The translations under genes were made by a program, and so were the position numbers. A stretch of DNA of 64,000 nt from positions 620,001 through 684,000 of the forward strand of contig NW_024881673.1 in assembly GCF_019059575.1 (NCBI RefSeq), read 5' to 3'. Positions 3,169-62,109 of the stretch are shown piece by piece; within the stretch, counting starts at the first letter, position 1; every line of letters begins with the position of its first letter. Source of the stretch: Amphibalanus amphitrite (Eukaryota; Arthropoda; Thecostraca; Balanomorpha; Balanidae). Below the pieces are notes generated by a model. The model did not search any database. It was given only the letters and a program-made list of their open reading frames with translations, and was not told where the DNA came from.

Positions 3169-4362
3169 TTAACCTTCGCCCTGGTGGGGGGGGGGCCATT
3201 TTGGCCCCCCCCCTGTGGTTTTTCAGCGATAACTCAGAAACCACTTGAGTTAGCGCCCTGAAACTTTGTATAGCTGTTTATTCAACATTTTTACATCATG
3301 TCCTTTTTTGGGGGGTTCGGGTCAGGTCAGGTCAGGTCACAAGGTCACCAAAACTGACACCACCTCTAAAAAAGTTCAAAGCTCTCTCAAAGGCACAGCT
3401 TTTATCCGATCGATGTAAAATTTACAGTACTTGAAGATGTCACCCAGCTCTACAAAATGGCTATCTCGGATTTTTTATAAATGTGACCTAAGGTCAGGTC
3501 AGGTCATCGCTGCTCCCCATTATAAGTCAATGGGAGAATCGAAAAGTAGTTGTTTTTCAGCTAAATCGGGCGTGATTGTTCCTATATTTCGTTATTGAAG
3601 TGTCTTGGGTCAGCAAATCACAGCCCATGTGAAACCATTTGCTTGTGACCTCGCTGAGGTCACGCTAGGTCATCTCCCTGGTCACCAGAGGTCACCAGCG
3701 GTTTTTCTGCACTTACTTGTTATTGAATAGAGATAGAGACTCCGTTCGACGTTTATCGTGTTTGTCTCGTCAATGCGGATCGAATGATATGCAGCATGAC
3801 CTATTTCGGTAAGGTCATGACCTTGACCTGAGGTCAAATTTTCAAAATGACCTTTCGAGGTCAAACTATATATCATTCGACGCGTCTCGACGAGCCAAGC
3901 ACGATGGTGCATGAATCGTTTCTCTATTTTCTCGTGAATGCATGCTATAGTTAAAAACATTTTCAAAGAAATTTGCCAAGTTGACCTTGCATGACCTCTG
4001 TAGGCCAAACCGTTGAGCTGAGGTCAAATCTGACGAACCTTGGCGAAAGAGCTTGAAAAGAGCTATCGATTGCTTTTTTCCGCGGCTCTCTAGCTCTTCT
4101 AGTTTCCGAGCTACAGCGGAATATGTCCGGCAACACCGAAAACACTGAAATTTGACCTATGATGACCTCTAGCGACCTCAATATTGACCTTAGCGAAAAA
4201 ATGACCGAAATACTTTCGAACGTACTTGTTATGGGCTTTCGTTTGCTTTTTTCCGCGTCTTCCTAGCCCTCTTCGTTTTCGAGTTAGACGGGGGGGGGTC
4301 ATTTTGGCCCCCCCCCCCACCAGGGCGAAGGTGGCTCAGACCCACACCAGGGCGCGGGTTAA
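3169..4362 (-). mobile_element. TTAA element (piggyBac-like MITE) inside the Mab-21-like gene
   Basis: TTAA at 3169-3172 and 4359-4362 bounds 1,190 bp. The left end reads TTAACCTTCGCCCTGG, then a G-run, core CCATTTTGG and a C-run. The right end reads G-run, TCATTTTGG, C-run, then the tag ACCAGGGCG twice (the 'long' end) and GGCGCGGGTTAA. The interior is non-coding and dense in TGACCT/AGGTCA. It carries the CATTATAAGTCAATGGG block shared with the elements at 45701, 52081 and 54904. Removing the element and one TTAA restores the host frame (GAC TTA TTA AAG). Its length is not a multiple of three and the junctions bring in a stop, so it disrupts the gene unless spliced out. Confidence 0.9.
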
Positions 4363-5328
4363 TAAGTCGATGGCTACCCCGCTCTCCTTCAGGATGTTTT
4401 TGATGGCCTTTAGGGCTGTAACCGCAGCCCGCAGCCCCGGGCAGAGCTGACGGACGGCCAGCAGCTCCGCCCGAGACAGCGAGATGCGGTACTCAATAGA
4501 CTCCGTCTCACTGCCCGGCCGGCCGGTGGGCACCAGGTGGACCCCGAAGCTGGTGTCCCAGGGGGCGCCGTCGGGCCAGACTGGCGCGGGCCACCAGCCG
4601 CGCACCAGCAGGCAGAAGACGAAGTCTATGCCGCCGTCTTTAGCATCAGGCCTTTTGACATTGACTGCCGGGCCGGTGGGGGTGATCTCACCATCCCCCA
4701 CGACCCGGCAGAAGTCCACCATCAGCCGACGGACCGAGTCGGCCGGCAGCGCCTCCAGCGGCTCCTCGTGGCCGCACCGGTCCGTCCGCACCCAGTGCAG
4801 CGTCACGAAACCGGCGTTGTCGGTCGGCCGGGCCCACAGCTGCGGCGCAGAGCGCGGCTCGATGACGGCCGGCTTCTCCGCGCCCGGTGGCGCCCAGCGG
4901 AAGGGGCCGTCAAACTCTAACATAATGTCGAAATCTGACGTGCTGTCCTCACCGATGATAAGGTCCTCCAGCCCCTCAGCCGAGCTCCCCGACCTGTTAC
5001 AGGTGACCAGCCGGAGCGGCTGGCGGGGCTGGCAGTGACGACACCGGGCGGCGGCGGCGGCCCCGACCTCCGCCAGCGCCGACAGCAGAGGGCGGCGCAA
5101 CAGATCACCGACGGCGTCACCGACCTCACAGCCGGTGATGTACGCCTGTTTGCCCGGGCCGTGGTTGTCCACCAGGTCTGTGGCCACCAGCAGCGTGTCG
5201 GCGACCAGATGGGCCGCCGACCCGCACCTCGCCACCAGCTGCTGCACCACCGGCTCCAGCCTCCTCTCCACCAGCCTCCAATTCCGCTCCACCCTGTAAA
5301 AGCGAGCGGCATCAATGATTTTAGACAT
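4363..5328 (-). CDS. Mab-21-like (cGAS-like nucleotidyltransferase fold) protein, 5' part
   Basis: Starting from the methionine at 5328 (MSKIIDAARFYRVERN) the frame runs 322 residues to the TTAA insertion. An N-terminal helix with VVQQLV precedes a nucleotidyltransferase core. That core has GSSAEG at about residues 114-119, an acidic pair DFD at about 132-134 in DFDIMLEF, and a third aspartate at about 235 in GIDFVF followed by a Trp-Pro turn. These positions correspond to the Gly-Ser motif and metal-binding acids of cGAS/Mab-21 enzymes, so catalysis is possible, though untested. The C-terminal part (LKAIKNILKESGVAIDLL) leads directly into the KSYFIKTAA segment at 3168. The start is uncertain: an upstream in-frame Met exists at 5394, and a TTTTACAG acceptor-like site lies just after residue 10, so the true first exon could lie further upstream. 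Confidence 0.8.
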
Positions 5329-5394
5329 ACTTGTATCTATGTAGGTAGTTATAATAGGTAAGCGATCTAACGTAAGGCAAACACTAGGTGTCAC

Positions 5395-5620
5395 TGATCA
5401 CTGTCACAGACGGACTGGCCGGTGCCGGCCGGCGCCGCTGCTGATATACCGACCGCCGGCGGCGGCCCCGATAAGAGCCGCCGGCCGCCGGCAGCGACAG
5501 GCGCGCGGCGCCGACTGGAGCCGGCCGGCGGCCACCTCCGGCTGCCGGCGTCACGGCCAGCACAGAGACGAGCCGGGCCGGGTAGGGCCACACACCAGAG
5601 GTGGTACCTGCGCCGACTGG
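5395..5620 (-). promoter_or_regulatory. Very GC/CpG-rich upstream region of the Mab-21-like gene
   Basis: The 200 bp directly upstream of the gene on the minus strand is built of GCCGGC-type motifs and is much richer in CpG than anything nearby except the exon. It could be a 5' UTR, a promoter or an upstream coding exon. A 66-69 residue Arg/Pro/Ala frame across it shows no domain. The regulatory call is an inference from position and composition only. Confidence 0.3.
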
Positions 5621-6009
5621 TTTATTATGAAATGGTTGGTTATTTAGTCTTGTTAGTTCAAAACAAACATAATAACCTTGTTCCGTGCTGTTTATACACG
5701 ACGGGGATAGAAACTACCCCCCCCCCCCCGTCTGGCTGAGCAAAATAATGGACTCGTCCGTCTATACTGGAACGTCCAATGAGCACCGGTGTAAATGTTT
5801 TTGAATAAACAACTTCTTAGAACCCTTTGCTGTATGTTGGAGGGGGAGGGGGAGCTGGAGAGGGGGGGCACGCAGCTCATACCTGTTCTGAAAACTGAAG
5901 GTTCAGCATCGTTTGTAGAACGGTGATTGGTGATTGCTTAGAAATGAAGACCAAACCATCGAACTTAGGTAACATGCAAGCACAATACAACGATTTTATA
6001 TGTATTTAG
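5621..6009. other. Unassigned interval
   Basis: There is a poly-C tract near 5717-5730 and a G-rich tract near 5842-5867. I see no domain, RNA gene or clear transposon end. Confidence 0.3.
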
Positions 6010-6565
6010 TGTTTAGAAGGTTGGGGGTTGAATACAACCCCCCCCCCTGAGATCTCGAAAACGGCGCAACGTAGCGACAAGCGGTAAACGGCGTTGGGTA
6101 GGTTGAGATGAGATCTACAAGAAATACAAAGATCATTTTTGGGTCAGGTCAAAAACGAGGTCAGCGGAGGTCACCAAACTCAAAATGTTGCGATTTTTTA
6201 GCGATCTCGACATCCCTCCATATTTCCCGATTTATCTCGGGAACTAGATGAGCTAGAAATTTGCGATAAAAAGCATTCGGTAGCTGTTGAAACGCTCTTT
6301 CGCTAAGCTGTCCTCAAATTTGACCTAAGGTCAACGGTTCAGCCTACAGAGGTCATGTAATGTCAGATCAATATTGCAAATTTTCCGGAAATGCTTTTTC
6401 TGCAATAACTTTTCTTCCCAATGAGATAGAGAAATAATTCACACACCATCGTTCTTAGCTCGTCAAGGTGCATCGAATGGTATATAATATGCCCTCGAAA
6501 GAACAAGTTCAAAAGTTGACCTCAGGTCAAGGTCATGACCTGACCGAAATAGGTCATGTTGCATA

Positions 6566-8626
6566 GGGGAGAGCGAGGCCATTTGAACCACTTTTTATAT
6601 ATTGACATGCACAGCGAGATCTAGTTGTCATATCGAAAAATGCACAATACCATGAAAAAAATATGCTCTTTTGGCTTTATTTTAAGATATATAAAATTAT
6701 GTTTCAAACATATTTTGCTGCCAAACGCATGCTTATAAAACAGCTCTACGCCCGTTTCAAATGACCCCGATGCGAGGGTCAATTGAACCAGCCCATGGGG
6801 TCAATTGCACCTATCCTTAACAATGAAATGTTTTCCTCTTTAAGGCCACTTTCTTAACCCTCGCCCTGGCAGGGCATTTTTCATAACACGGCCTGGCAGG
6901 GGGGGAGGGTCGATGCGACCCCCCCTCGCGATTGGCTCCTATGGCACCTAGAAACACCAAATTTAGTGTGTAGGTGGGCCCCCTGGAGATCTCCCCCCTG
7001 TGCAAATTTGGTTGCTCTAGGGCAATATTTAGGGGGGTTTTGGGGGGGTTTAAATGTAAAAATTTCGCGAAAAACAGGTCAAAAGTTTTTCGCTTATAAC
7101 TTTTGATCTAATTAAGATAGAGCAAAAAGAAAAGCACCAGTGAACTCAGCACGTCAAGGCGCGTCGAATGATATACTTTTTAGCTTGCTTAAGTGTACTT
7201 AAAGTTTTTGTTAAATTTTAAGTAAACTTAAATTTATAAATTAAGTTCAAGTTAACCAAATTGCATCATATCGCATATCATCCGATTCGGCTGATCACCA
7301 GGAACACAATGATACCATTATTTAAGCTCTAGCGTCATTATGTGCCAAGTTATTGGCAAAAACGTCATTTGACCTCAGTTGACCTGATTTGACCTGACCC
7401 ATGGATAAGTACACCAAACAAAGAAGCACCAAGTGACCTGCTGTTAAGTACTGTGGTTTCAAAGCACAAAAGTGATAGAACGAAGCGGATATCTCCAGTA
7501 TTTTCCGAATTTAGTATTTTCCCATAGGCTTAACATTACGACGTAATGACCTCTAACTGACCTCAGGTCAGTGACCTCAAAAAGCCCGAACTATATGTTA
7601 TACAACTCGGTGAACTTAGCACATCCTGAAAGTTTGAAGGAAATCAGTGCAAAACTGTGAGTTGGGGAGGTGGAAAAAGAAAATTGAAATTTGACCATGA
7701 CCTTGTACCGGTTTTTCTGACCTGGTGACCTGACCCAAGGTCACCCGGACCTGAAATTTTCAGGTCATATGTAAAAAGGTTGCCCCATAGGCTGTGCCAA
7801 ATTTGGCGGCGCTGCGCGCCGCCGTTTTTACGCTATCTTCGAAAAACCTTAGGGGGGGGTCGCATCGACCCCCCCCCCTACCAGGGCGAGGGTTAAGGAG
7901 ATATTTTGTCCGGTTTACTTTTCCAAATGTTACATTCAATAGGTCGTTGGAAAGCTAAAAGTGCAAAGTTCCTCAAAATAGGTGACATAAAGTACATAGA
8001 CTATGGTAAAATGGGCGGATGAGGAAAATGAGAAATATCTCAGGCTATAGTGTGCTTTCAAGCAAAAGGCTGGAGAAAAGGGGTCAAAAATTGAGCTCTG
8101 TTAAAATACTATTTCAGTTTAAAAGCTCATTTCAAAGGTGGACTATTTCCTTTAATGTTTACAGACCCTGAACAATAACCATTGCAAAGGTCACCGGGGT
8201 CCATTGAAAAGGCCTGTGGCCCTGTTTCAACTGACCCTCAGAGAAGCGTTTCAATTGACCCCATCCGCTCCCGCCATCTCGCACGCGCCGTAAAGCACAT
8301 GTCAAACGAGCTGGAGGGACGGCATCATGCTGAATGAAGGGCCAAATAAGATGTTATTCCGGAGCCAGGCGTTCTTCTTTCAGCAAACAAAGGTATATGA
8401 GATATCACAAAATATTCATAAAAACGATTTCTCCCAAACGCCCCTAAAAAACACAAAAACAAGTGTCAAATCAAAATTACCGTCCGTTTGCCGCCCAAAC
8501 GCCGTTGTCAAAGGAAGTGGTCGAGCGCGGATGCGCAGTGGTGTCGGCAACGCTATATGTTGCATACTGTTGAAAATAAAGCCATGTTTCATCTGACCCC
8601 GTATTTCAACTGGCCCCGCTCTCCCC
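6566..8626. mobile_element. TA-target DNA transposon relic (non-autonomous)
   Basis: Inverted ends GGGGAGAGCGAGGCCA (6566) and its near complement ending at 8626 are flanked by TA at 6564-6565 and 8627-8628. Deleting it rebuilds TTGCA-TA-TCATTCG, the sequence found uninterrupted in related elements. GGTCAATTGAACC-like motifs recur near both ends. Without the nested TTAA element it is about 1.0 kb and has no transposase. The TA duplication suggests a Tc1/mariner- or ISL2EU-like mechanism; the superfamily is not certain. Confidence 0.65.
6854..7896 (-). mobile_element. TTAA element, core TCGATGCGA, tag CTGGCAGGG
   Basis: It spans 1,039 bp plus TTAA (6854-6857, 7893-7896). Left: TTAACCCTCGCCCTGGCAGG, a second CCTGGCAGGG, G-run, TCGATGCGA, C-run. 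Right: G-run, TCGCATCGA, C-run, CCAGGGCGAGGGTTAA. The tag is doubled on the left, so the long end is left. A second copy lies at 40881-41923 with the same length and near-identical sequence. Confidence 0.9.
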
Positions 8627-9224: not shown

Positions 9225-10401
9225 TTAACCCTCGCCCCGTTGGGGGCCATTTTGCCCCCCTGTGGTTTTTCCTGAATAGCAAGAAAACAGCGGCGCGCAG
9301 CGCCGCCAAATTTTCAGTACCTTCCCGGGCATCAATTTGACACCTTCACACCAAATTTCAAGTCTAAGGTCACCTTAGGTCAGGAGTTATTGAGGTCATA
9401 CTGAGGTCATGTTCGAGCAAAAATGAGCAAAAAACATGCAATTTTGAAACGCTCACCAAATCTACAGTTATCAAGCAATTTCAAAGTTCTTTATATGGTC
9501 TAGTAGACAAAAAGCGGCGCTACAAAACTGCTATCTCGGATTTTCAAAATTTTGGGTTGTTGACCCAAAAAAATTCAAAAAATTGATTTTTTTAGAAAAA
9601 CTAAAAAAAATCCAAAATTTTTTTCCAAATTTCGAAAAAAAACAGAATATATGTGATAGTCCATGCGCTCTTCTGTATACATACCAAATTTCAGATCGAT
9701 ATCTCGTTTTTTGGCCAAGTTATAGCGAACAAACTGTTCAAAAATGATGACGTCAAATTTTTGAACTCAATTTTTGGCGATTCTAGACCACTTACGGCAA
9801 AACAAAGACTACCATTGAACTCCCCGTGACAAGCTGCATCGATTTGATACCCATTTTATGCAAAAATATTAATTTTAAAATTTGACCTAATTTGACCTGA
9901 CCTTGTCCTGACCTTGGCCTGAATTTGACCAAAACGTGACCTAAGCTGGCCCCAAAGGCTGCCTGACCCACATAATCGCATTTGTCATGTAAAATGGACC
10001 ATAAAACATGTATCACACGACACGTTCATATTGTGACCCCCCCGTGACCTGACCTCTGTGACCTGACCTGGTATCAGTGACCTCAAATAGCAAAATATGT
10101 GTTTGAAGAGCATTTCCTCATCGATGATTTTCAATGAAATGCATTTTACTCGATTTTACAACGCATTCCTTGAAATGCCTGTAAACGATGAAAATTAGAA
10201 CTTTGACCTGACCTGTGACGTCATCAGTTTGACCTAGGTCAATAAAATTGGGTCACAAGGTAGTTCCCTGATAGGGCTATCCAACACCGTTTGCCGCTTG
10301 TCGCTAGGTTGCGTGGTTCTCGAGATCTTAGGGGGGGCAAAAATGCCCCCCCTCCCCAACGGGGCGCGTTGCTCGGCAGAGCCCAACGGGGCGCGGGTTA
10401 A
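9225..10401 (+). mobile_element. TTAA element, core GCAAAATGC, tag CCGTTGGGG
   Basis: It spans 1,173 bp plus TTAA. Left: TTAACCCTCGCCCCGTTGGG, then CCATTTTGCC. Right: GGCAAAAATGCC, then CCCAACGGGGCGCG twice around TTGCTCGGCAGAG and GGGTTAA (long end right). The subterminal palindrome GGCGCGCAGCGCC follows the left hairpin. The interior has the CATAAAACATG block shared with the families at 17239, 22670 and 53710. Its left TTAA is also the right end of the older element 6010-9228. The closest relative is at 44516-45698. Confidence 0.9.
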
Positions 10402-10468: not shown

Positions 10469-11373
10469 ATAACCCTCGCATGTGTGCGGCGTTTGCCAGC
10501 TTCTAATGTGTAGGGGGGGGGTCGGTTGGACCCCCCCCCTTGCCGTTTGGCCCCTGATCGAGCTAGAGCTTCGCAGAAAAAACGAGCGTGTTGCCCGTGA
10601 CGAGAGGAAGCCGATGATACCCAATTTTAAGGTCCTAGGTCATTGGTTGACCTTCCAGGTCAGGTCAATGACCCAAAGTCGGGAAAATCGGGACCAATTA
10701 GAAAGTCGTAAAGTGTGGTTGCTAAGGGGTTTTTCGGGGTGCTGATCACGAATATCGTGTTAGTTTTGATCACAGATGATGTCTTTAAGCATTTACACCA
10801 GGTCGGGTCAGGTCAGGTCAGGTCAACCAGTAGGGGTTGTGACGGGTATTCGTAGTACGTGTCAACCGCCTCTGACAGCTTCGTAACATGTTACGAAGGC
10901 ACCAAAACTACTTCGTAAATGTTCAAATGGTTGCTAAATTCGAATTCAGCTAAAAAAACTAGCCTAGAAACATGTAAAACTCGAAAAAGTGAACCGAGGT
11001 CACCCGAGGTCACCAAAGGTCAATGACCTGACCTGACCTTCAGGTGACCTTGACACCCATTCTAATGCATGGGAGCAACATCAAATCACATGTTTGAACG
11101 TTTGAAACCACGAAAAGCTTGCAAACGCGCGGCTAATGCGAGCCGACATACGCGGAATCGCGATTCCGGCCAAACATGGTCTCGGAAAAGAGGTCACAGG
11201 TCAAAGGTCATTTGGGTCAGGGTCATGAAATTTTCAGGGTAGGTGTAAAATTGATCAATGAGAGGGCACTGAAAGTTTCGTCGCGATCGGCCGCTTTTTA
11301 CGCGAGTTATTCGCGAAAAACCATGGGGTGGTCCATCCGACCCCCCCCCCCCCCCTACACATGCGAGGGATAA
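10469..11373 (-). mobile_element. TTAA-type element flanked by ATAA instead of TTAA
   Basis: Ends ATAACCCTCGCATGTG and CACATGCGAGGGATAA lie in inverted orientation, 901 bp apart plus one ATAA. Left core TCGGTTGGACC and right core GGTCCATCCGACC match as inverted copies, and the ATGTG tag is doubled on the left. The interior is AGGTCA-rich. Architecture is that of the TTAA elements but the duplication is ATAA on both sides. Confidence 0.8.
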
Positions 11374-11678: not shown

Positions 11679-12505
11679 GAAACTTCCACTGCAATGAGTG
11701 GTCCGATATCGATATAGCTAATGCCCAGCGAAGGCCAGCCCGTCTTCACTAATCCAAACAAGGTAGGTATGTCTGTTGGTGAGCTCTGTCCTGTGTCACG
11801 TGAACTCGACTGACGTCTTGGAGGGGTGGGGGGGGGGCGCTGCAGGCACGGTACCCTGTCGGTCACGGGGCCGACAATATACTGCTGACCTGACTAACTG
11901 ACCAGGTCAGTCAGCCCCCCAACGGTCTGGGCTGAATCCCGGCTGCAACGAATGGGGTGGCGTTTATTTGAAGGTACAATCTGTCCCGCTGAGGTCAAAC
12001 GGGGCCGCACATATCGAGACGCTGTTTTCAAGGAACGTTACTACGGCTTATAACCTGACTGCAATGATGTGCTTTGATTTGGAAATCGGCCGAAGCTCAT
12101 ACTCGAGAACCGCTGTGCAAGTTTATTTTCGAAATACCTAACCCAAACATAACCAGTTTGGTCAACATATGACCTTGGAGGTCAATTTGCTAGCGAGAGA
12201 GAAAGATGTAATGCTGGCGAGTCGTTTGAGTGTCATTTTTTGGCGCTTTAGCTCTACTGCTACAATCTCTTCAGTGCTCTGCAAATTTGTGTCATGTGAA
12301 ATTTGTTGACCTCTGGAGGTCAAACGGCTGGAGGTGCCACCGAATGGCTCGGGCTGTGAATTGTGTACGTCACAACTTCTATTGTGTGCATGTTTCAGCT
12401 CGATATCAAGTGTCCAAAATCTGGGCTGAATCCTGCCTAAGTCTGGGCTGAATATGGGCTGTCTTGAAGTCCTCTGGCCTCGATCATGACTCGATGATGA
12501 CGTCA
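11679..12505 (+). repeat. Conserved leader of the 89-bp satellite, copy 1
   Basis: About 830 bp here is collinear with 31462-32290. It includes GAAACTTCCACTGCAATGAG at the start, a G-run near 11830, CTGACTAACTGACCAGG, TTGTTGACCTCTGGAGGTC and a final GATGACGTCATCGAACAT just before the array. Copies differ by substitutions and small indels. No coding frame is shared by both. Confidence 0.85.
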
Positions 12506-14835
12506 TCGAACATATCAGTCATCGCCAGCGTGTTGATGGTGGTGCCGTCCCATATGATCGCTGGACTCCATCTCTGTGGACTGGGTGGGACCGACAGAAC
12601 ATGTCAGTCATCGGCAGCATGTTGATGGTGATGCCGTCCTATATGATCGCTGTACTCCATCTCTGTGGACTGGGTGGGACCGACAGAACATGTCAGTCAT
12701 CGGCAGCATGTTGATGGTGGTGCCGTCCTATATGATCGCTGTACTCCATCTCTGTGGACTGGGTGGGACCGACAGAACATGTCAGTCATCGGCAGCATGT
12801 TGATGGTGGTGCCGTCCTATATGATCGCTGGACTCCATCTCTGTGGACTGGGTGGGACCGACAGAACATGTCAGTCATCGGCAGCATGTTGATGGTGATG
12901 CCGTCCTATATGATCGCTGTACTCCAATCTCTGTGGACTGGGTGGGACCGACAGAACATGTCAGTCATCGGCAGCATGTTGATGGTGGTGCCGTCCTATA
13001 TGATCGCTGGACTCCATCTCTGTGGACTGGGTGGGACCGACAGAACATGTCAGTCATCGGCAGCATGTTGATGGTGGTGCCGTCCTATATGATCACTGTA
13101 CTCCATCTCTGTGGACTGGGTGGGACCGACAAAACATGTCAGTCATCGGCAGCATGTTGATGGTGGTGCCATCCAATATGATCGCTATACTCCATCTCTG
13201 TGGACTGGGTGGGACCGACAGAACATATCAGTCATCGGCAGCATGTTGATGGTGGTGCCGTCCTATATGATCGCTGAACTCTATCTCTGTGGACTGGGTG
13301 GGACCGACAGAACATGTCAGTCATCGGCAGCATGTTGATGGTGGTGCCGTCCTATATGATCGCTGTACTCCATCTCTGTGGACTGGGTGGGACCGACAGA
13401 ACATGCCAGTCATCGGCAGCATGGTGATGGTGGTGCCGTCCTATATTATCGCTGGACTCCATCTCTGTGGACTGGGTGGGACCGACAGAACATGCCAGTC
13501 ATCGGCAACATGGTGATGGTGGTGCCGTCCTATATGATGCGCTGGACTCCATCTCTGTGGACTGGGTGGGACCGACAGAACATGTCAGTCATCGGCAGCA
13601 TGTTGATGGTGGTGCCGTCCTATACATATAATCACTGGACTCCATCTCTGTGTACTGGGTGGGACCGACAAAACATGTCAGTCATCGGCAGCATGTTGAT
13701 AGTGGTGCCGTCCTATATGATCGCTATACTACATCTCTGTGGACTGGGTGGGACCGACAGAACATATCAGTCATCGGCAGCATGTTGATGGTGGTGCCGT
13801 CCTATATGATGCGTTGTACTCCATCTCTGTGGACTGGGTGGGACCGACAGAACATGTCAGTCATCGGCAGCATGTTGATGGTGATGCCGTCCTATATGAT
13901 CGCTGGACTCCATCTCTGTGGACTGGATGGGACCGACAGAACATGCCAGTCATCGGCAGCATGGTGATGGTAGTGCCGTCCTATATGATGCGCTGGACTC
14001 CATCTCTGTGGACTGGGTGGGACCGACAGAACATGTCAGTCATCGGCAGCATGTTGATGGTGGTGCCGTCCTATATGATCGCTATACTCTATCTCTGTGG
14101 ACTGGGTGGGACCGACAGAACATATCAGTCATCGGCAGCATGTTGATGGTGGTGCCGTCCTATATGATGCGTTGTACTCCATCTCTGAGGACTGGGTGGG
14201 ACCGACAAAACATGTCAGTCATCGGCAGCATGTTGATGGTAGTGCCGTCCTATATGATCGCTATACTCCATCTCTGTGGACTGGGTGGGACCGACAGAAC
14301 ATGTCAGTCATCGGTAGCATGTTGATGGTGATGCCGTCCTATATGATCGCTGGACTCCATCTCTGTGGACTGGGTGGGTCCGACAGAACATGTCAGTCAT
14401 CGACAGCATGTTGATGGTGATGCCGTCCTATATGATCGCTGGACTCCATCTCTGAGGACTGGGTGGGACCGACAGAACATGTCAGTCATCGGCAGCATGT
14501 TGATGGTAGTGCCGTCCTATATGATCGCTATACTCCATCTCTGTGGACTGGGTGGGACCGACAGAACATGTCAGTCATCGGCAGCATGTTGATGGTGATG
14601 CCGTCCTATATGATCGCTGTACTCCATCTCTGTGGACTGGGTGGGACCGACAGAACATGTCAGTCATCGGCAGCATGTTGATGGTGGTGCCGTCCTATAT
14701 GATGCGCTGTACTCAATCTCTGGACTGGGTGGGACCGACAGAACATGTCAGTCATCGGCAGCATGTTGATGGTGGTGCCGTCCTATATGATCGCTGTACT
14801 CCATCTCTGTGGACTGGGTGGGTCCGACAGAACGA
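12506..14835 (+). repeat. 89-bp satellite array A1, about 26 monomers
   Basis: The monomer contains ATGTCAGTCATCGGCAGCAT, GTGCCGTCCTATATGATCGC and CATCTCTGTGGACTGGGTGG. The 89-bp period is not a multiple of three, so the many 75-residue open frames are by-products. Several monomers are 90 bp because GATCGCT became GATGCGCT (for example near 13535, 13805, 13985 and 14165). A1 monomers are more diverged from one another than those of the array at 32.3 kb. Confidence 0.97.
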
Positions 14836-15322
14836 TAGGCGTTATCACAAGTGTATTCGCGGCCATTGGGGCGACGTAAGAAAAGAAGAAAACAACTGGC
14901 CCCAAGAACTATAAATTATCAGTTAGCATGCACCTTTTCCTTGATATGTAGAGAATTTACCATTAATTGTTAGAGAAAATTGCATTTAAAATCTTCCATT
15001 TATGCTTTTTTCATCGTTTGCACAGTATGTTCTTTTACTAAGCTAGAAACACTAATTATAAATAGTTCCCGCATCATCAAGAACAATAGGAAAGGCTTGA
15101 AGTGAATACAATAATCTAAACGGTTTTGTAATCCATGTGAAGACACTTCTAAAATTGCCTGTAGAATTATTTAAGGCAAAAGTTCAACTTTTTCACAAGA
15201 CGGATGGCTATAAACCTATTCAACGTGTGACAACTCAGCCGGTATTTCGTCGCCTACAGCCCAGCTTTTCCTAGTGACCGATAGAGGCGCTGCTATCGAT
15301 GTCCGCCCGTGCCGCCTAACGA
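14836..15322. other. AT-rich spacer between arrays A1 and A2
   Basis: About 490 bp of AT-rich, non-repetitive sequence interrupts the satellite. I see no transposon ends or coding signal. Confidence 0.5.
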
Positions 15323-17057
15323 CATGTCAGTCATCGGCAGCATGTTGATGGTGGTGCCGTCCTATATGATCGCTGTACTCCATCTCTGTGGACTGGGTGG
15401 GACCGACAGAACATGTCAGTCATCGGCAGCATGTTGATGGTGGTGCCGTCCTGTATGATCGCTGTACTCCATCTCTGTGGACTGGGTGGGACCGTCAGAA
15501 CATGTCAGTCATCGGCAGCATGTTGATGGTGGTGCCGTCCTATATGATCGCTGTACTCCATCTCTGTGGACTGGGTGGGACCGTCAGAACATGTCAGTCA
15601 TCGGCAGCATGTTGATGGTGGTGCCGTCCTATATGATCGCTGGACTCCATCTCTGTGGACTGGGTGGGACCGACAGAACATGTCAGTCATCGGCAGCATG
15701 TTGATGGTGGTGCCGTCCTATATGATCGCTGTACTCCATCTCTGTGGACTGGGTGGGACCGACAGAACATGTCAGTCATCGGCAGCATGTTGATGGTGGT
15801 GCCGTCCTATATGATCGCTATACTCCATCTCTGTGGACTGGGTGGGACCACCAGAACATGTCAGTCATCGGCAGCATGTTGATGGTGATGCCGTCCTATA
15901 TGATCGCTGGACTCCATCTCTGTGCACTGGGTGGGTCCGACAGAACATGTCAGTCATCGACAGCATGTTGATGGTGATGCCGTCCTATATGATCGCTGGA
16001 CTCCATCTCTGAGGACTGGGTGGGACCGACAGAACATGTCAGTCATCGGCAGCATGTTGATGGTAGTGCCGTCCTATATGATCGCTATACTCCATCTCTG
16101 TGGACTGGGTGGGACCGACAGAACATGTCAGTCATCGGCAGCATGTTGATGGTGGTGCCGTCCTATATGATCGCTGTACTCCATCTCTGTGGACTGGGTG
16201 GGACCGACAGAACATGTCAGTCATCGGCAGCATGTTGATGGTGGTGCCGTCCTATATGATCGCAGTACTCCATCTCTGTGTACTGGGTGGGACCGACAGA
16301 ACATGTCAGTCATAGGCAGCATGTTGATGGTCGTGCCGTCCTATATGATCGCAGTACTCCATCTCTGTGGACTGGTTGGGACCGACAGAACATGTCAGTC
16401 ATCGGCAGCATGCTGATGGTGGTGCCGTCCTATATGATCACTGTACTCCATCTCTGTGTACTGGGTGGCACCGACAGAACATGTCAGTCATCGGCAGCAT
16501 GTTGATGGTGATGCTGTCCTATATGATCGCTGTACTCCATCTCTGTGGACTGGGTGGGACCGACAGAACATGTCAGTCATCGGCAGCATGTTGATGGTGG
16601 CGCCGTCCTATATGATCGCTGGACTCCATCTCTTTGGACTGGGTGGGACCGACAGAACATGTCAGTCATCGGCAGCATGTTGATGGTGGTGCCGTCCTAT
16701 ATGATGCGCTGTACTCCATCTCTGTGGACTGGGTGGGACCGACAGAACATGTCAGTCATCGGCAGCATGTTGATGGTGGTGCCGTCCTATATGATCGCTG
16801 TACTCCATCTCTGTGGACTGGGTGGGACCGACAGAACATGTCAGTCGTCGGCAGCATGTTGATGGTGGTGCCGTCCTATATGATCGCTGTACTCCATCTC
16901 TGTGGACTGGGTGGGACCGACAGAACATGTCAGTCATCGGCAGCATGTTGATGGTGGTGCCGTCCTATATGATCGCTGGACTCCATCTCTGTGGACTGGG
17001 TGGGACCGACAGAACATGTCAGTCATTGGCAGCATGTTGATGGTGATGCCGTCCTAT
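15323..17057 (+). repeat. 89-bp satellite array A2, about 19.5 monomers
   Basis: Same monomer and orientation as A1. The last monomer is cut in CCTATAT at 17057, where the left end of a TTAA-type element (CCTTCGCCCCAGTGG) begins. One 90-bp GATGCGCT monomer lies near 16700. Confidence 0.97.
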
Positions 17058-22456: not shown

Positions 22457-22669
22457 GTCGACGGTATCAAGATAATTCCCTGTGCCGAAAAGGATAACTT
22501 ATAGTGTCACTACTCTAAAACAATGTATTAAAAAAAAATGTCGACTTTACAAACAAGAGTAATTTTTAACATTGGTTTAAAAATTAACAAAAGGATCATG
22601 TATTGAATGACAATGATTAAAATCATCTTCGAATAATATAACCTAGTTATATCATTTAATAAATATTTA

Positions 22670-23592: not shown

Positions 23593-23743
23593 GCCAAATA
23601 TAACGTAAGTATATTTGACTGAGAAAACCAAATTATATGTTAACACATAAATATTATTCTTGATATGGAAAGAGGGAAGCAGAACTGAGTTGATCCCTGT
23701 TGCCCACGTGAGTCAACTCGGCCGACTTGGCGCGGGTTCAGAG

Positions 23744-23994
23744 CAGGGCTGCGGAGTCGATGGATTTTCGGCGACTCCGACTCCGACTCCGGGCAGAATT
23801 GTCGACTCCGACCGACTCCAACTCCCGACTCCGACTCCGCAGACCTGGCAGGGCTGCGGAGTCGACAGATTTTCGGTGACTCCGACTCCGACTCCGGCTC
23901 GGGTTTCTAAAATCGACTCCGACTCCGACTCCGACTCCGGTCACAGCTGTCGACTCCGACCGACTCCGACTCCGACTCCGACTCCGCAGCCCTG
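23744..23994. mobile_element. hAT-type MITE with (GACTCC)n interior, tandem dimer, copy 1
   Basis: Ends CAGGGCTGCGGAGTCG and CGACTCCGCAGCCCTG are inverted copies. An exact 8-bp duplication GTTCAGAG flanks them (23736-23743, 23995-24002), as hAT transposition leaves. A second CAGGGCTGCGGAGTCG starts at about 23849 after an inward CCGCAGACCTG, so two units sit head to tail. The interior is GACTCC repeats. Confidence 0.88.
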
Positions 23995-45700: not shown

Positions 45701-46735
45701 TTAACCCTCGCCGGACCTATTGGTTTTCTACATACGCGCCGGCCGAGGGGGGGGGGCGGGTACGACCCCCCCCCTCGCCGTTTCGCCCCTGGTGGAGCTA
45801 GCGCGTCGCGGAAAAAACGAGCGTGTGCGCCGTTACGAGACGCAGAGATTGGTACCCGATTTTAAGGTCCTAGGTCAACCGGTGACCTCTGAGGTCAGGT
45901 CAAGTGCCCCAAGGTACGGTTCAGTTTTTGGTGAATAACTTCGCAAAAAACGGCCGCAGAGCGCCGATTTTGGCAGCATCGTGTTCGTCTCGCTCAGGCG
46001 CGTCGAATGATATACTTTTTGTCCGGGTCAGGTCAACTTGGGGTGTTGACCTCAGGTCAAGGTCAGGTCAGCACCCCCAGGTCACGAAGTTGGTCGAAAG
46101 AGGTCATGTCGCATATCGTTCGATTCGGCAGGTCTTCCTGAGTCCATTGGTGGCTTTCCCGACTCGCTAGCTCAATTTGATCAAGAGTTATTGACGAAAA
46201 ACTAATATGACCTTGATGACGTCATAAATGACGTCACGCAAGGTCAACATTGCAAAAGTGACGCATCTAACCTTGCAAGGAGTGCATCAAATCACGATTC
46301 TGTGTGCTTGAGATAGTTGGAGATCGTTCCCGGCGCCAGAATAGCAGTTTGAATTTTTCCCCATTGACTTATAATGGTGAGGTCACGAAAATGACCTGAC
46401 CTCATATGACCTTTAGGAAAAATCCGAGATATACAAGTTGTGGGACTCATAATGGATACTAGATCCTGCAAGTTTCATTTCCCTGTGACATCTCCTCTGG
46501 CAGTGAGGGCGTTGCGAAGTTGAGACATCTGAAGACCGTGCAGAGGTTCACTTATGACGTCATAGGTCAGTGACCTGACCTGACCCAAAAATGCGGTTGG
46601 TGTCAAAAGATCCGGCTTGGATCAAAGGTCAGGTATGCCAAGTTTCAGCTCTCTATCGCCAGCGTGTTCGGAGCTATCGCGAAAAAACCCTATGGGGGGG
46701 CGGCACCCGCCCCCCCCTCGGCCGGCGAGGGTTAA
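45701..46735 (-). mobile_element. TTAA element, core CGGGTACGAC, tag GGCCGAGGGG
   Basis: It spans 1,031 bp plus TTAA (45701-45704, 46732-46735). Left: TTAACCCTCGCCGGACC, CGCCGGCCGAGGGG, G-run, CGGGTACGACC. Right: GCGGCACCCGCC, C-run, TCGGCCGGCGAGGGTTAA. The interior has CATTGACTTATAATGG and paired TGACGTCA sites. Nearly identical to 61064-62109. Confidence 0.93.
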
Positions 46736-52080: not shown

Positions 52081-53282
52081 TTAACCCGCGCCCGGCTGGG
52101 GGTCCTGGATTTCCACGCCCTGCTGGGGGGGGGGGGGGTGTTTGAACACCCCCCCCCCCTTGTAACTCGGCTCCTGGGCCACGTAGCGATACGCGGAAGG
52201 CGGCGTTCGAAAGAGCGTCAAAAATAATGACGAAATCACTTCGGTCAATTTTTTGGTCAGGTGAAAGGTCAGGTCACCAGAGGTCATTGAAGGCAAAATT
52301 TCGCCGATTTCCAGGTCGAATGTCGAAAATTTCTAAGAAGCCAACGCATAGCTCGGGAACCAATAGAGCTACAGCGCCGCGGAAAAGCGCATTCGATAGC
52401 CCTATTAACGTCCTTTCTGAGTAATTCTCTCAGATTTGACCTAACGTCAACGGTTTTGCCTGCAGGGGGCAAAAACTGCAAAAATAGCCGATTTTTTCGA
52501 AAACAGTTTTTCTGCAATAACTTTTGACCCAAGCCTTGTACGAGCTTACTTTTACCAGCATCGTGTTCCTCTCGTCAAGACGCATCGAATGAACTATAAC
52601 TTGACCTTGAAAGGTTAACTTGAAAATTTGACCTCAGGTCAAGGTCATGACCTGACCGGAAAGGGTCATGTTGCATATCAGTCGATCCGTACCGTCGAGC
52701 TGAACACATCTAAGGCGTTTTCATCGCTCTGGCATGCCTCTATCAAAAGTTATTTGCGAAAAACTGTTAGATACCATTCGTGTCCTAAGATGACCTCAGG
52801 GCATAAACAAGGGTCACGGACACCATTTTCATGTTCATTGTGTCTAAAACACTTGTAATTCGGTGTTTGGGAGTGTTTTTAATGTCTTGCATCCAAAAGA
52901 GGCGCATTTCAATTTTCTCCCATTGACTTATAATGGCGAGGTCGCAAAATTGACCTGACCTTAGGTCATCGATATCAAAATTCTGAGATATACATTTTGT
53001 ACATGCTATTGTCCTTAGCAATCGCTGAAAGTTTCAAAGCGATCGGTCACTCGGTGTAGCTATGACAGACATTGAAAGTTTTTATGAGGTGAGGTCACTT
53101 CAAGTGACCTGGTGACCTGACCTTGAATGACCTTGGTCTGAATTTTTTACAACATGTGTAGAATTGATGTATGATAAGGTGTACCAAAAACGGCGGCGCT
53201 CCGCGCCGCCGTTTTTGAGATATTCGCGAAAAAACCACAAGGGGGGGTGTTCAAACACCCCCCCCAGCAGGGCGCGGGTTAA
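52081..53282 (-). mobile_element. TTAA element, core GTGTTTGAACAC, tag CCTGCTGGGG
   Basis: It spans 1,198 bp plus TTAA (52081-52084, 53279-53282). Left: TTAACCCGCGCCCGGCTGGG, a second CCCTGCTGGGG, G-run, GTGTTTGAACAC (long end left). Right: GTGTTCAAACAC, C-run, AGCAGGGCGCGGGTTAA. The interior carries AGGTCATGACCT at 52642-52653 and CATTGACTTATAATGG. Truncated relatives start at 38587 and 62468. Confidence 0.93.
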
Positions 53283-53709: not shown

Positions 53710-54890
53710 TTAACCCGCGCCCCGTAGGGCTACCGGCGGACCCTACCAACCGTAGGGGGGGGGGGCCGTATCGGCCCCCCCCCTAAGATCTCGGAAAGTT
53801 ACCGGCCGATTTTCAAAATTCAAACGGCGTTCGATAGCCCCATCCGGGAAATACCTTGTGACCAAATTTCATTGACCTAGGTCAAACCGATGACGTCACA
53901 GGTCAGGTCAAATGTCAGATTTTCACCGTTCACAGGCAATTCAAGAAATGTGCTGTGAAAGCGAGTAAATTGGTAATTTATTGAAAACCATCGATGGTAC
54001 ATTGTTCGTCAAACACATACTTTGCTATCTGAGGTCACTGATACCAGGTCAGGTCACAGCGAGGTCAGGTCACCGGGGGTCACAATATGAATGTGTCGTG
54101 TGATACATGTTTTATGGTCCATTTTACATGACAAATGCGATTATGTGGGTTAGGCAGCCTTTGGGGCCAGCCTAGGTCACGTTTTTGTGAAGGTCAGGTC
54201 AAGGTCAGGTCAAATTAGGTCAAATTTCAAAGTTAATATTTTTGCATAAAATGGGTATCGATTCGATGCAGCTCGTCACGGGGAGTCTAATGGTGGTCTT
54301 CGTTTTGCTCTACGAGTTCTAGAATTGCCAAAAATTGAGTTTGAAAATTTGACGTCATCATTTTTGAACAGTTTTTTCGCTATAACTTGGCCAAAAACGA
54401 GGTATCGATCTGAAATTTGGTATGTAGATAGAAGACGGTAGGCACTATCACATATATTCCGGTTTTTTTCGAAACTCAAAAAACTTTTTGGATTTTTTGG
54501 CGAATATATCCAAAAAAATGCTTTTTTGATTTTTGGGGGTCAAAACTCAAAAATTTCAAAAATTCGAGATAGCAGTTTTGTAGCCCTGTCAATTCTACAC
54601 CTTTTATGTCTAGATCATTTTTCTGTATCTTCAAAGCTGTAGTCCTGACATGTCTTCTTGCGAAGGTCTTTTTTCGGTCGAAAATGACAGAACATGACGT
54701 CACTCTGACGTCATTTGTGGCCAACCTATCATAGCCTCTAGAAAAATTTTTGGTCACAATGTGTAAAATTGAGGCCCGGAGGGGTCCTGAAAGTTTGGTG
54801 GCGATATCTCCAGCCGTTTAGGAGATATCGACCGAAAAGGACAGGGGGGGGGGGCCGTTTCGGCCCCCCCCCCTACGGGGCGCGGGTTAA
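53710..54890 (-). mobile_element. TTAA element, core CCGTATCGG, tag CCGTAGGG
   Basis: It spans 1,177 bp plus TTAA. Left: TTAACCCGCGCCCCGTAGGG, GACCCTACCAACCGTAGGGG, G-run, CCGTATCGGCC (long end left). Right: GCCGTTTCGGCC, C-run, CTACGGGGCGCGGGTTAA. The interior (inverted) aligns with the 9225 family, including the CATAAAACATG-type block and TGACGTCA. Confidence 0.92.
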
Positions 54891-54903: not shown

Positions 54904-55911
54904 TTAACCCGCGCACCGACGGGGGGGGGCGGATATCCGCCCCCCTGAGGTTTTTCGCGGATAGCGGGAAAACCGCGGCGCGTAGCGCCGCGAAATTTGG
55001 TATGACTATTCTCTCATCAATTTTACACATGGTGTGCAAGTTTGAACCTCCTAACTTTTAAGGTCAGGTCACCAGGTCACTTTGAATGACCCAACCTCAA
55101 GTCACTTTTTTGCAACTTTGTCACCGTGCCAGAGCTACAGTAGATGTCGGAGGCCTTTGAAAGTCGCAGGATGTTATAAGGTCATTAGTAGCTACAATTT
55201 GTATATCTCGGAATTTTGATGTCGGTGACCTAAGGTCAGGTCAATTTTGCGACCTCCCCATTATAAGTCAATGGGGGAAAAATCAACTCCCTGTTTTTAC
55301 CACTAAAACGGGTCGGAATGGCCCCATATACCATACATGACTTCACATACGATCAACCTTCACTACCTTGAGGTCTGTTTTGCTGTTGGGCAGCTGTAAG
55401 GTCATGTGACGTCATCAAAGGTCACCAAAGGTTTTTTGCCAATAACTCCTTACAGGAACAAGATACAGCCGCGCGGATGGTCTCATTGTGTTCAGCTCGT
55501 CAAGACGCATCGAATGATATACATGATGACCTCGAGGTCACGTGACCTGAGGTCAACCTTTGACCTTGACCTTTCGAGGTCAACATATATATCATTTGAT
55601 GCGGCTTGACGAGAGGATCACGATGATGCCCTTAGTTTGTTCCTATCTTGACTAATTCGAAAGTTATTCGAGAAAAACCCTCTCAATATCTAGCGCCGCC
55701 ATTTTGACCTTTTCGACCCCTGTGACGTCATCTTTGACCTGACCTGAAAATGACCTTAGTAAAAATTGTAGACCTTGTCCGTGCGTATCCGATGCCGTTT
55801 ACCGCTTGTCGCTATCTTGCTTCGTTCTCGAGATCTCAGGGGGGGCGGTCATCCGCCCCCCCCCCCCGTCGGTACTAAGTTGGCGCAGACCCCCGTCGGT
55901 GCGCGGGTTAA
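54904..55911 (+). mobile_element. TTAA element, core CGGATATCCG, tag ACCGACGGGG
   Basis: It spans 1,004 bp plus TTAA. Left: TTAACCCGCGCACCGACGGG, then GCGGATATCCGC. Right: GCGGTCATCCGC, C-run, CCGTCGGTACTAAG, CCCCCGTCGGTGCGCGGGTTAA-type ending (long end right). The interior has CCCATTATAAGTCAATGGG. Only 13 bases separate it from the element ending at 54890. Confidence 0.92.
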
Positions 55912-58467: not shown

Positions 58468-59652
58468 TTAACCCGCGCCCCACTGGGGGGGCTATTTATA
58501 GCCCCCCCCTCCCGTTTTTCTGCAATAACTTCCAAACCGCTTGACGGATCGACGCCAAACTTTCAGTACCTTCGGCTGCATCAATTTGACACCTTGTGTC
58601 AAAATTTGAACTTCGTACCTACAATAGGTCGGCCGGAAATGACGTCAGAGTGACGTCATGTTCGTCCGATTTCGACGCAAAACATTGAACCACGGCAATC
58701 GCTCCCAAGAGCTCAGTTTTTAAGCTAGATCCAATTTCTTTGCATGAAAGAACTCAGAATTGACCGCGCTATCAAACTGCTATCTCGGATTTTCAAAATT
58801 TTGAAAATTTTGAAAAAAAAAATTAATAATATTCAAAATTTATATTTTTATATTTTTTTCAAAAAGTTTTTGACTTTTCGAAAAAACCGGAATATATGTG
58901 ACAGAACGCATGATTATGACTAACTCTAGCAAGTTTTAGCTAAATATCTTCAAAAATAACAAGTTATACGCATTATTGCAAAAAATTCACAATTATTAAT
59001 TTTTCAAATCAATTTTTCAGTACGTATTTGGCATCGTACACCAATATAAATGGCACCATCGTGTTCCTGAGCTCAAACTGCATCCAATAGACACCTTTTT
59101 TGTTGAAAAATTTCAACTTCAAAATTTGACCTTTTTTGACCTGAAAGTGAACTGACCTAAGCTAAATTCGACTCAAAATGACCTCGAATGACATAGACGA
59201 CACCAAATTCGAAATCTATGGCCTAAATGGACCATAAAACATGTGTCACGTGACCGACGCATGATATAATATTTTCGTGACCTGTGATGACCTGACCCTG
59301 ACCTGAAAATCAAAGTACAAGTTTGGTACCCGCAAGGTATCTAGAACATCTGTTCACGAGTGTGGAAACCAAAAATGAGCCTGATCTGACTTGTAAGACG
59401 GCGGCCAGAGCCCAAAATGTGAACAAGCCAAAGTGCTAATAATTTTTACTTTGACCTGACCTGTGACGTCATCGGTGACCTCGAGGTCAATGAAATTAGG
59501 TTGCGCTCGACAGTTTTTCCGGGGCTATCAGACGCCGTTTGAATTTTGACGATCGGCCCAGTAGTTTCGGAGTTAGGAGGGGGGGGCTATGAATAGCCCC
59601 CCCCCCCCCAGTAGGGCGTGTTATACACAGACCCCAGTGGGGCGCGGGTTAA
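58468..59652 (+). mobile_element. TTAA element, core CTATTTATAG, second copy
   Basis: It spans 1,181 bp plus TTAA (58468-58471, 59649-59652). Collinear and near-identical to 17239-18422, including the doubled right tag with GTTATACACAGACC between copies. Confidence 0.94.
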
Positions 59653-59940: not shown

Positions 59941-60857
59941 TTAACCCTCGCCCGCACATGCCATTTTCCCATCCTAGAACGCACATGGGGGGGGGTGGTT
60001 GCCACCCCCCCCCCCGCGCCATTTCGTTCCTGTTGGAGATAGAGCTTAGCAGTAAAGACAAAAAAGATTCTTTGGGAAGAGACGAATCCAATGATACCCA
60101 GTTTTACCTTCTCAGGTCAGTCATTGACCTTCCAGGTCAGGTCAAACTAAAAAATGTTGCTGTTTTGGGTCACCGTTGGATATCAAGTGCGCTGCTTATC
60201 AAATACCGATGACGATGCTGTTTTCTGGTGCCAAGCCAGCTAGAACCTCTTTGTCACACTATCCGACCAGAATTTTGCTGCTGAGGTCATTTCAGGTCAA
60301 GTTAGGTCAAGGTCAATTATATGTGTTTGTATGTCTGTGTGTGTCTGTGTGTATACTGATGTGTGCACCGATTGTTTTTGGGTCCATATCACATGAAATC
60401 ATGATCTGAGAAGCTTTTACCAAAAATGCAGTCAAAAAACTTCACAAAAAGTAAATTCAGCTTGCCTAAAACGCAATTATCTTAGATGACCTAGGTTGAC
60501 CTTGACCCTGACCTTGACCCCTGTACATCGTCGAACAACATGTTCCATGATAGGTGGGAGGTAAGACTGGCAAAAAAGGCCGAAATCAGGGTGTCAAAAG
60601 CTCACAAGGCCCATGGCAAACGCAAGATGTTGAGAATTGGCCATTTGGGTCATGACATGACCTGAAAAACAAGGTCATATCTCCGAAACCAAAAATCACA
60701 GAAACTTGAAATTTTCAGTGGACATCAAGAATGAATAGACGAGCAGCTATACGAAAAATCAGCCTTCTAGCTCTAAAAATGTTGAGTGCAGAGCAGAAAG
60801 ACTGCCTGGGGGGGGGGGGGTGGCAACCACCCCCCCCCATGTGCGGGCGAGGGTTAA
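59941..60857 (-). mobile_element. TTAA element, core GTGGTTGCCAC, tag GCACATGGGG
   Basis: It spans 913 bp plus TTAA (59941-59944, 60854-60857). Left: TTAACCCTCGCCCGCACATG, a second GCACATGGGG, G-run, GTGGTTGCCAC (long end left). Right: GTGGCAACCAC, C-run, ATGTGCGGGCGAGGGTTAA. It inserted into the RT gene. Removing it and one TTAA joins HCV to KWCTKWGF in frame. Confidence 0.93.
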
Positions 60858-61063
60858 ATGGTGCACTAAATGGGGATTCTTTTTGTCAGCGCCAAAATCA
60901 GTCATGATGGTCTTCAAACGTGGACCCCGTCCATCGCTTGAAAGATCCCCACACATCGATGGGATTAAAATTCCTTTTTCCACGTCACACAAATTTCTAG
61001 GGATCATTTTGGATACTAATCTAACCTTCCGTCAACACGTTGAGCACCTAAGAGCACGTTGTA
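60858..61063 (+). pseudogene. RT-RNase H retroelement, RT piece 2
   Basis: The frame reads KWCTKWGFFLSAPKSVMMVF, then IDGIKIPFSTSHKFLGIILD and LTFRQHVEHLRARCI. This is the palm-to-thumb part of a non-LTR RT (LGIILD box). It is open from one TTAA insertion to the next and continues piece 1 once the 59941 element is removed. Confidence 0.85.
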
Positions 61064-62109
61064 TTAACCCTCGCCGGACCTATTGGTTTTCTACATACGC
61101 GCCGGCCGAGGGGGGGGGGGCGGGTACGACCCCCCCCCCTCGCCGTTTCGCCCCTGGTGGAGCTAGCGCGTCGCGGAAAAAACGAGCGTGTGCGCCGTTA
61201 CGAGACGCAGAGATTGGTACCCGATTTTAAGGTCCTAGGTCAACCGGTGACCTCTGAGGTCAGGTCAAGTGCCCCAAGGTACGGTTCAGTTTTTGGTGAA
61301 TAACTTCGCAAAAAACGGCCGCAGAGCGCCGATTTTGGCAGCATCGTGTTCGTCTCGCTCAGGCGCGTCGAATGATATACTTTTTGTCCGGGTCAGGTCA
61401 ACTTGGGGTGTTGACCTCAGGTCAAGGTCAGGTCAGCACCTCCAGGTCACGAAGTTGGTCGAAAGGGGTCATGTCGCATATCATTCGATTCGGCAGGTCT
61501 TCCTGAGTCCATTGGTGGCTTTCCCGACTCGCTAGCTCAATTTGATCAAGAGTTATTGACGAAAAACTAATATGACCTTGATGACGTCATAAATGACGTC
61601 ACGCAAGGTCAACATTGCAAAAGTGACGCATCTAACCTTGCAAGGAGTGCATAAAATCACGATTCTGTGTGCTTGAGATAGTTGGAGATCGTTCCCGGCG
61701 CCAGAATAGCAGTTTGAATTTTTCCCCATTGACTTATAATGGTGAGGTCACGAAAATGACCTGACCTCATATGACCTTTAGGAAAAATCCGAGATATACA
61801 AGTTGTGGGACTCATAATGGATACTAGATCCTGCAAGTTTCATTTCCCTGTGACATCTCCTCTGGCAGTGAGGGCGTTGCGAAGTTGCGACATCTGAAGA
61901 CCGTGCAGAGGTTCACTTATGACGTCATAGGTCAGTGACCCGACCTGACCCAAAAATTCGGTTGGTGTCAAAAGATGCGGCTTGGATCAAAGGTCAGGTA
62001 TGCCAAGTTTCAGCTCTCTATCGCCAGCGTGTTCGGAGCTATCGCGAAAAAACCCTATGGGGGGGGCGGCACCCGCCCCCCCCCCCCCCCCTCGGCCGGC
62101 GAGGGTTAA
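61064..62109 (-). mobile_element. TTAA element, core CGGGTACGAC, second copy
   Basis: It spans 1,042 bp plus TTAA (61064-61067, 62106-62109). Near-identical to 45701-46735, apart from homopolymer length and scattered substitutions. It inserted into the RT gene. Removing it and one TTAA joins RARCI to KRINVLRCICGF in frame. Confidence 0.94.

Follow-up and report, generated by a model that had tools for sequence, protein, structure and literature searches.

Family-specific sequence marks matched between the two ends of piggyBac-like TTAA elements in a barnacle genome

What keeps the two ends of a transposable element alike in sequence marks that differ from one family to the next? The question is raised by a 64,000-nucleotide stretch of the Amphibalanus amphitrite genome (the window; C176:620001-684000 in the searched assembly of 807.6 Mb and 2644 contigs), in which short elements bounded by TTAA carry such marks. 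The initial annotation, made from the letters of the window, described the marks as hairpin 'barcodes' and suggested selection for the pairing of like ends. We consider it highly probable that these elements belong to the piggyBac superfamily as non-autonomous members, and that their end marks are sites for a dimer of the transposase CRD, kept matched by selection.

Layout and matching of the element ends

The motif TTAACCCKCGCC occurs 29 times in the window with at most one mismatch, compared with a mean of 0.56 and a maximum of 3 in shuffled sequence. We delimited 17 elements of about 0.9-1.2 kb, one of them with a nested insertion, and assigned them to 11 families (F1-F11) defined and named by tip, tag and core. 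The cores listed in the initial annotation are present, and its description of family-specific, end-matched marks is confirmed. Fifteen elements are delimited by TTAA; the right TTAA of 40464-42433 has decayed, as have both of 10469-11373. The sequence following the TTAA position is CCC or CCT at both ends of all 17 elements, as in the piggyBac superfamily. Each element has at both ends a family-specific tag and a palindrome built as a G-run, a core and a C-run. The left end (LE), which is short, reads TTAA, tip, tag and palindrome, whereas the right end (RE), which is long, reads TTAA, tip, tag, a spacer of 16-18 bp, a second copy of the tag and then the palindrome. In a search at offsets of 16-51 for the 10-bp stretch with most identities (6 to 10), with ties resolved towards 27, this second copy lay 27 bp from the first in 10 elements, 26 bp in three and 28 bp in four. 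The two ends had been annotated as inverted copies of each other, which holds for the tag and the arms of the core; they are not mirror images, given the spacer and second tag of the RE, and the centre of the core often differs.

Hand-trimmed cores showed dyad symmetry at 73 of 98 pairs, a value reached in 0 of 20,000 shuffles. Mismatches between the left and right cores fell on 10 of 36 positions in the centre and 5 of 70 in the arms (p = 0.007). Judged from these sequences, conserved arms and dyad symmetry would suit a dimeric protein that reads two half-sites. The lengths of the G- and C-runs differ among copies having one core and hence do not belong to the code. The cores of F1 (CCATTTTGG) and F3 (GCAAAATGC) are nearly identical; the tags of these families differ.

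We measured the matching with one element per family, which used 11 of the 17. Core similarity between left and right ends was 0.816 within an element and 0.365 between elements, and none of 20,000 permutations was as high. The own partner ranked first in 10 of the 11 families, the exception being F3, which shares CATTTTG with F1. Tags gave 0.82-0.93 for own and 0.39-0.45 for other partners over three comparisons, again with 0 of 20,000 permutations as high, and the own partner ranked first throughout except for F2 in one comparison. Independence of left and right cores, named in the initial annotation as the outcome that would undo its proposal, was thus not seen. An extended test covered 18 end sets, the 11 above and seven from other loci, with hand-trimmed cores, F3 taken from another copy, and the ends of F11b and of F11c each paired from different elements. 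Its values were 0.789 for own and 0.374 for other cores (0 of 20,000 permutations), and the own RE came first in 14 of 18 sets.

The matching stops at the palindrome. For the 60 bp inside it, left and right did not match: 7,555 of 20,000 permutations reached the observed value, as did 1,611 of 20,000 for the reverse complement. Mean local scores of these flanks were 23.5 for left against left and 16.5 for right against right across families, compared with 12.0 for the left and right flanks of one element and 11.9 for those of different elements. Because the flanks resemble each other left to left and right to right, the families share an asymmetric ancestor, and the two ends have changed together only in the tag and the palindrome.

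The elements have moved by insertion at TTAA. The F5 element at 22670-23592 has an unfilled TTAA between the same flanks at 25625-25628, within a duplicated segment (21707-23791 and 24661-25827, 98-99% identical) that holds the element in one copy and lacks it in the other. Both flanks of the nested F2 element at 40881-41923 are spanned by an uninterrupted F5 relative, with a 4-bp overlap that is the TTAA at 23177-23180, and two more nested cases, an F6 copy entered by L015 and an F2 copy entered by L033, have 4-bp overlaps as well. TTAA target-site duplication with a seamless empty site, the behaviour of the piggyBac superfamily, is therefore present here.

Transposase-bearing partners in the genome

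A PF13843 (DDE_Tnp_1_7) profile search of the assembly returned at least 116 scored matches, from which we selected 35 piggyBac-domain loci to span different families. The transposase-bearing relatives that the initial annotation had proposed to look for do exist and carry family-specific cores: G-palindrome ends belong to the transposase at five of the 35 loci (L030, L032 and L033 for a further family, F13; L035 for F1; C702 33509-39481 for F3). At L035 (433-5155), F1 ends enclose a 666-aa transposase. Over 1-513 (99.0%) and 512-1194 (99.4%), the F1 copy of the window matches the two flanks of L035, and it is therefore an internal deletion derivative of that element. F3 is 89.5% and 88.7% identical to the C702 element, a single copy carrying a nested element of family F15, and comparison of the sequences makes this element probably the transposase-bearing partner of F3. 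Among the F13 copies only L032 has both the start of the reading frame and the CRD; L033 lacks the frame start and L030 shifts frame before the CRD. In four more copies, two of F1 and two of F13, we found five of the eight predicted ends, all with the family core (C257 RE, both ends of C431, C42 LE, and C171 RE with a mutated TTAA); the other three were absent from the predicted place. L046 has an F5-like LE and a 480-aa open reading frame (ORF), with no RE found, and is only suggestive. The remaining 29 loci showed no G-palindrome ends owned by the transposase within the 4 to 8 kb stretches, in which a more distant end could be missed. At piggyBac loci L020, L023, L027 and L029 of the same genome, the ends diverge past TTAACCC and have no G-palindrome. 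We withdrew one candidate, L024, whose 604-aa piggyBat-like transposase had seemed an autonomous partner of the TCGGATCCGA family, because no such ends stand at the predicted places in any of six further copies of this transposase, and because an inner TTAACCC element of L024 holds the ORF.

The partner proteins are piggyBac-type transposases by domain and alignment. PF13843 matched L035 (F1) at 1e-59, L033 (F13) at 3.4e-68 and L038 (F3, single copy) at 2.1e-64, so that a transposase of this type lies between matching ends in all three families, in F3 by that single copy. The L035 and L033 proteins match the piggyBac structure 6x67 through to its C-terminus at residue 593 (1.3e-56 and 9e-79). 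In an alignment of 11 transposases, eight of them database relatives of the F3 enzyme, the catalytic Asp triad (aligned to piggyBac D268, D346 and D447) was invariant in every row, and the cross-brace zinc domain of the CRD aligned with its eight ligands in 10 rows, the exception being P0182, which is shortened; L046 ends before the CRD. Over the 11, identity averaged 51% for the DDBD and catalytic part together and 44% for the CRD, a figure that drops to 33% once the zinc ligands are left out. The transposases of F1, F3, F13 and the F5-like L046 are 34-45% identical in the pairs reported. Taken with the layout and the empty TTAA site, these relatives support the piggyBac-like identity given in the initial annotation.

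What holds the two ends together

In Trichoplusia ni piggyBac, as set out in the part of the source covered (PMC7351741), bp 2-6 are contacted by the catalytic domain and bp 7-16 by the DDBD, while the palindrome at bp 17-33 is bound by a CRD dimer. There the RE contains a 17-bp insertion and a duplication, and its bp 34-63 repeat LE bp 7-35 almost exactly, at an offset of 27. With the DDBD on bp 7-16 and the CRD on bp 17-33, the barnacle tag and palindrome fall by position on the two domains that read sequence, and from piggyBac we would assign them to the DDBD and the CRD, respectively. The long end has its tag again about 27 bp inward with the palindrome behind it, a place that a second transposase dimer would occupy. 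Each CRD would read the palindrome of its own family. The ends would stay matched because one transposase must bind both: only copies with the code of a living transposase at both ends would keep moving, and selection may in this way keep the two ends alike even as the interiors change by mutation and recombination. A docking site for the transposase is thus the most likely meaning of the matched end code in this analysis, and of the causes offered in the initial annotation, selection for recognition of both ends by one transposase fits best.

Several observations weigh against this reading. The distance from tip to palindrome is not fixed: the G-run between tag and core spans about 5 to 16 bp among copies, whereas spacing in piggyBac is fixed, and because G-run length varies the LE core starts, as parsed, anywhere from bp 18 to bp 31. 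The palindromes of the F6 RE (1 of 4 pairs) and F11 (2 of 4 pairs) are weak. In the extended test the own RE ranked only 2nd of 18 for F1 and F16, and the cores of F11b and F15 matched poorly, with the own RE 6th and 10th. F15 (L050 1276 / L038 670, C702:33975-34974) has tags that match between its ends and cores that do not; it may have been mobilised by a different transposase or be a hybrid. Partners were found for three families only (F1, F3 by a single copy, and F13, which lies outside the window). Among the 35 loci there was none for F2, F4 or F6-F11, and for F5 one end only.

Shared ancestry alone, with each family born once with matched ends and given too little time to drift, is the best of the alternatives and yet improbable. 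Copies within multi-copy families are about 91-99% identical to each other, and so fairly young. However, left ends are homologous across families whose cores differ and nonetheless agree across the two ends, so both ends must have changed since the common ancestor. F3 and F8, moreover, retain a similar interior with different pairs of ends: F8 (53821-54584) is 84-95% identical to F3 (9519-10293 and 44815-45588) from about bp 450 to 1050, but identity is 43-64% over the initial 300 bp and 64% in the final window. By sequence comparison F8/F3 is a mosaic, a recent common interior with unlike ends.

A process that copies one end onto the other, so that matching reflects homogenisation and not recognition, was also raised in the initial annotation, and we judge it somewhat less probable still. 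It could account for F11, whose subfamilies a, b and c have switched tags at both ends, and partly cores (which go with the tags in a and c but follow them less closely in b), on related flanks (83-96% identical at the LE and 69-94% at the RE). But the match ends at the palindrome, the inner flanks have no left-right similarity, and left resembles left and right resembles right; conversion would require short tracts that respect the tag and palindrome and skip the spacer. Together with F3 and F8, F11 also speaks against core diversity that simply follows the interiors, the other result by which the initial annotation would have abandoned its proposal.

The third alternative takes the G-run, core and C-run as a DNA or RNA hairpin or cruciform, with the barcode in its loop or shape. 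From their sequence, arms made of long G- and C-runs could give very stable hairpins. Against this, the arms are better conserved between ends than the centre, the opposite of what a read loop would show, arm length drifts among copies with the same core, and in piggyBac the palindrome is bound by the CRD dimer in duplex form (PMC7351741, part covered); hairpin recognition, one of the options first annotated, is accordingly very unlikely. Least probable of all are sites for a host DNA-binding protein, for although the AGGTCA arrays described below show that the elements carry dense motifs of another kind, the palindrome position and tag repetition track the piggyBac transposase footprint, and tags differ between the transposase lineages of F1, F3 and F13, as do cores in two of the three.

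Beyond recognition of both ends by one transposase, we tentatively suggest a wider history, which is possible though we would not presume it. A piggyBac clade may have radiated in this genome into many families with a two-part code, the tag and the CRD palindrome, exchanged as a unit at both ends while interiors passed between families. The CRD would then have diverged faster than the catalytic core, the families would form mutually orthogonal systems, and the AGGTCA arrays may recruit a host factor.

The feature is real and strongly non-random, and its basis is most likely the known recognition of ends by piggyBac transposases in an unusually diverse form. The initial annotation knew of no description of such cores; this needs correcting, as matched palindromic internal repeats, the asymmetric layout and the binding domain are all on record for piggyBac in the part of PMC7351741 covered. 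T. ni piggyBac (LE35/RE63; structures 6x67 and 6x68; CRD nuclear magnetic resonance structure 5LME) shares with the barnacle elements TTAA, asymmetric ends, the order of tip, tag and palindrome, a second tag and palindrome shifted by 27 bp at the long end, and a CRD with cross-brace cysteines (same source). Its palindrome centre is fixed at about bp 25, whereas the distance from the tip varies in the barnacle elements, which also differ in variable-length G/C-run arms, many codes per genome and long AGGTCA arrays in subterminal position. In piggyBat of Myotis lucifugus, a member of the same superfamily, palindromes stand at the left end only, three times, and the CRD fold is different; the barnacle elements have palindromes at both ends. 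The CMITEs of Acropora corals are piggyBac-type TTAA miniature inverted-repeat transposable elements (MITEs) with a conserved interior and terminal repeats that differ between families; unlike the barnacle elements they are about 100 bp long, and the covered part of their description (PMC2872659) mentions neither G/C-run palindromes nor a duplicated tag. Pokey/mPok of Daphnia are likewise crustacean elements of the superfamily with MITE derivatives, as far as the covered portion of their description goes. In the literature searched, including the covered parts of PMC7351741, PMC11707139, PMC13405395 and PMC2872659, we found no description of so many differently coded families occurring together, or of such a set in a barnacle. 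What appears new is that one genome has many families differing in their matched codes, along with mosaic interiors and inward-facing AGGTCA arrays. How a piggyBac system discriminates its own ends has so far rested on few solved systems. With a dozen or more related families that differ in their end codes, and transposase-bearing partners for three of them, the barnacle genome allows the CRD recognition code, the origin of asymmetric ends and transposon orthogonality to be tested by comparison; for genome engineering, orthogonal piggyBac systems would also be of use.

AGGTCA arrays and other features of the window

The interiors are rich in AGGTCA, as first annotated: of the AGGTCA/TGACCT sites, 257 fall in the elements (18,080 bp) and 88 in the rest of the window (45,920 bp). 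AGGTCA is presumably a site of the nuclear-receptor type. Its clusters recur with a period of 169 bp (summed power 116.9, against a null mean of 52.1 and maximum of 84.8 over 500 placements); the spacing is about 167-188 bp overall and 188 bp in F13 (for example in 3169-4362, 45701-46735, 52081-53282, L030, L032, L033 and L035). Sites point inward, with 50 forward and 19 reverse in the LE half and 21 forward and 90 reverse in the RE half, counts that are not independent because the families are related. The arrays extend to the transposase-bearing flanks, with 33 sites in L035 and 12-13 in the F13 copies, whereas five other piggyBac loci, bounded by the nearest TTAACCC/GGGTTAA, have 0-4 each. 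In F13 the units of the array form a tandem repeat that has diverged (74% at a lag of 188 bp), and so they do in the F1 RE (68% at a lag of 171); in the ten other families of the window there was no unit homology above threshold. At this nucleosome-like spacing the arrays may recruit a host factor, and they pose a separate question on host factors.

Table 1 Elements, ends and related sites, in window positions
Feature	Position	Strand	Details
F1 element, deletion derivative of L035	3169-4362	+	LE (left) CCATTTTGG, RE (right) CCAAAATGA, tag CCCTGGTG
F1 LE palindrome (example), proposed CRD-dimer site	3186-3213	.	
F1 RE palindrome (example)	4290-4318	.	Behind spacer and second tag copy
F2 element	6854-7896	-	Core TCGATGCGA at both ends, tag CCTGGCA/CCTGGTA
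F3 element	9225-10401	+	Core CATTTT(T)G, tag CCCCGTTG
F11a element	10469-11373	-	Cores TCGGATGGA (LE) / TCGGTTGGA (RE), tag ATGTGT; TTAA decayed
F4 element	17239-18422	+	Cores CTATTTATAG / CTATTCATAG, tag CCCCACTG
F5 element	22670-23592	-	CGTTAAACG at both ends, tag AGTTGCTG; empty counterpart at 25625-25628
Empty TTAA target	25625-25628	.	Matches F5-occupied site 22670-23592
Lone RE of further family F12	30279-30418	-	Core CATATG...
F5 element	30415-31341	+	
F5 element, split by nested F2 copy 40881-41923	40464-42433	+	Right TTAA decayed
F2 element, nested inside F5 element	40881-41923	-	
F3 element	44516-45698	+	
F6 element	45701-46735	-	CGGGTGCCG (LE) / CGGGTACGA (RE), tag CCGGCCGA
F7 element	52081-53282	-	GTGTTTGAACAC at both ends, tag CCCTGCTG
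F8 element	53710-54890	-	CCGAAACGG / CCGTATCGG, tag CCCCGTAG; F3-like interior, unlike ends
F9 element	54904-55911	+	CGGATATCCG / CGGATGACCG, tag CACCGACG
F4 element	58468-59652	+	
F10 element	59941-60857	-	GTGGTTGCCAC at both ends, tag CCCGCACA
F6 element	61064-62109	-	
Lone decayed RE, F7-related	62469-62612	+	

Lone or decayed ends beyond the 17 elements lie at 6023, 9228, 17060, 30418, 38565, 57305 and 62469, and perhaps at 40364 and 43629. A frog Uribo2 query gave 352 matches; none of the 120 listed was named as barnacle, many rows carrying no name. A pattern scan of viral contigs gave five matches that we took as chance, four of them without a G-run/core/C-run behind the tip. On contig L003 of the viral collection (5987-6042), TTAACCCGCGCC is followed by a G-run and C-run around a 14-base core with no clear palindrome; no matching second end was seen on it, and its 12.7 kb contain only two AGGTCA sites.

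Between the elements, the window contains two large arrays with an 89-bp repeat step (12501-17059 and 31448-38355), which are about 94-98% identical and share flanks. An ORF on the minus strand at 2006-3244 is a piece of a Mab-21-like gene, with a PF20266 match below the curated cut-off and many similar A. amphitrite proteins, one of them 91% identical over 93%. The sole match in an Rfam scan of the window was a weak tRNA at 40118-40190 on the minus strand (29.5 bits, gathering threshold 29), perhaps a tRNA-derived repeat. A reverse transcriptase fragment lies at 19287-20297 (RVT_1, 1.7e-14).

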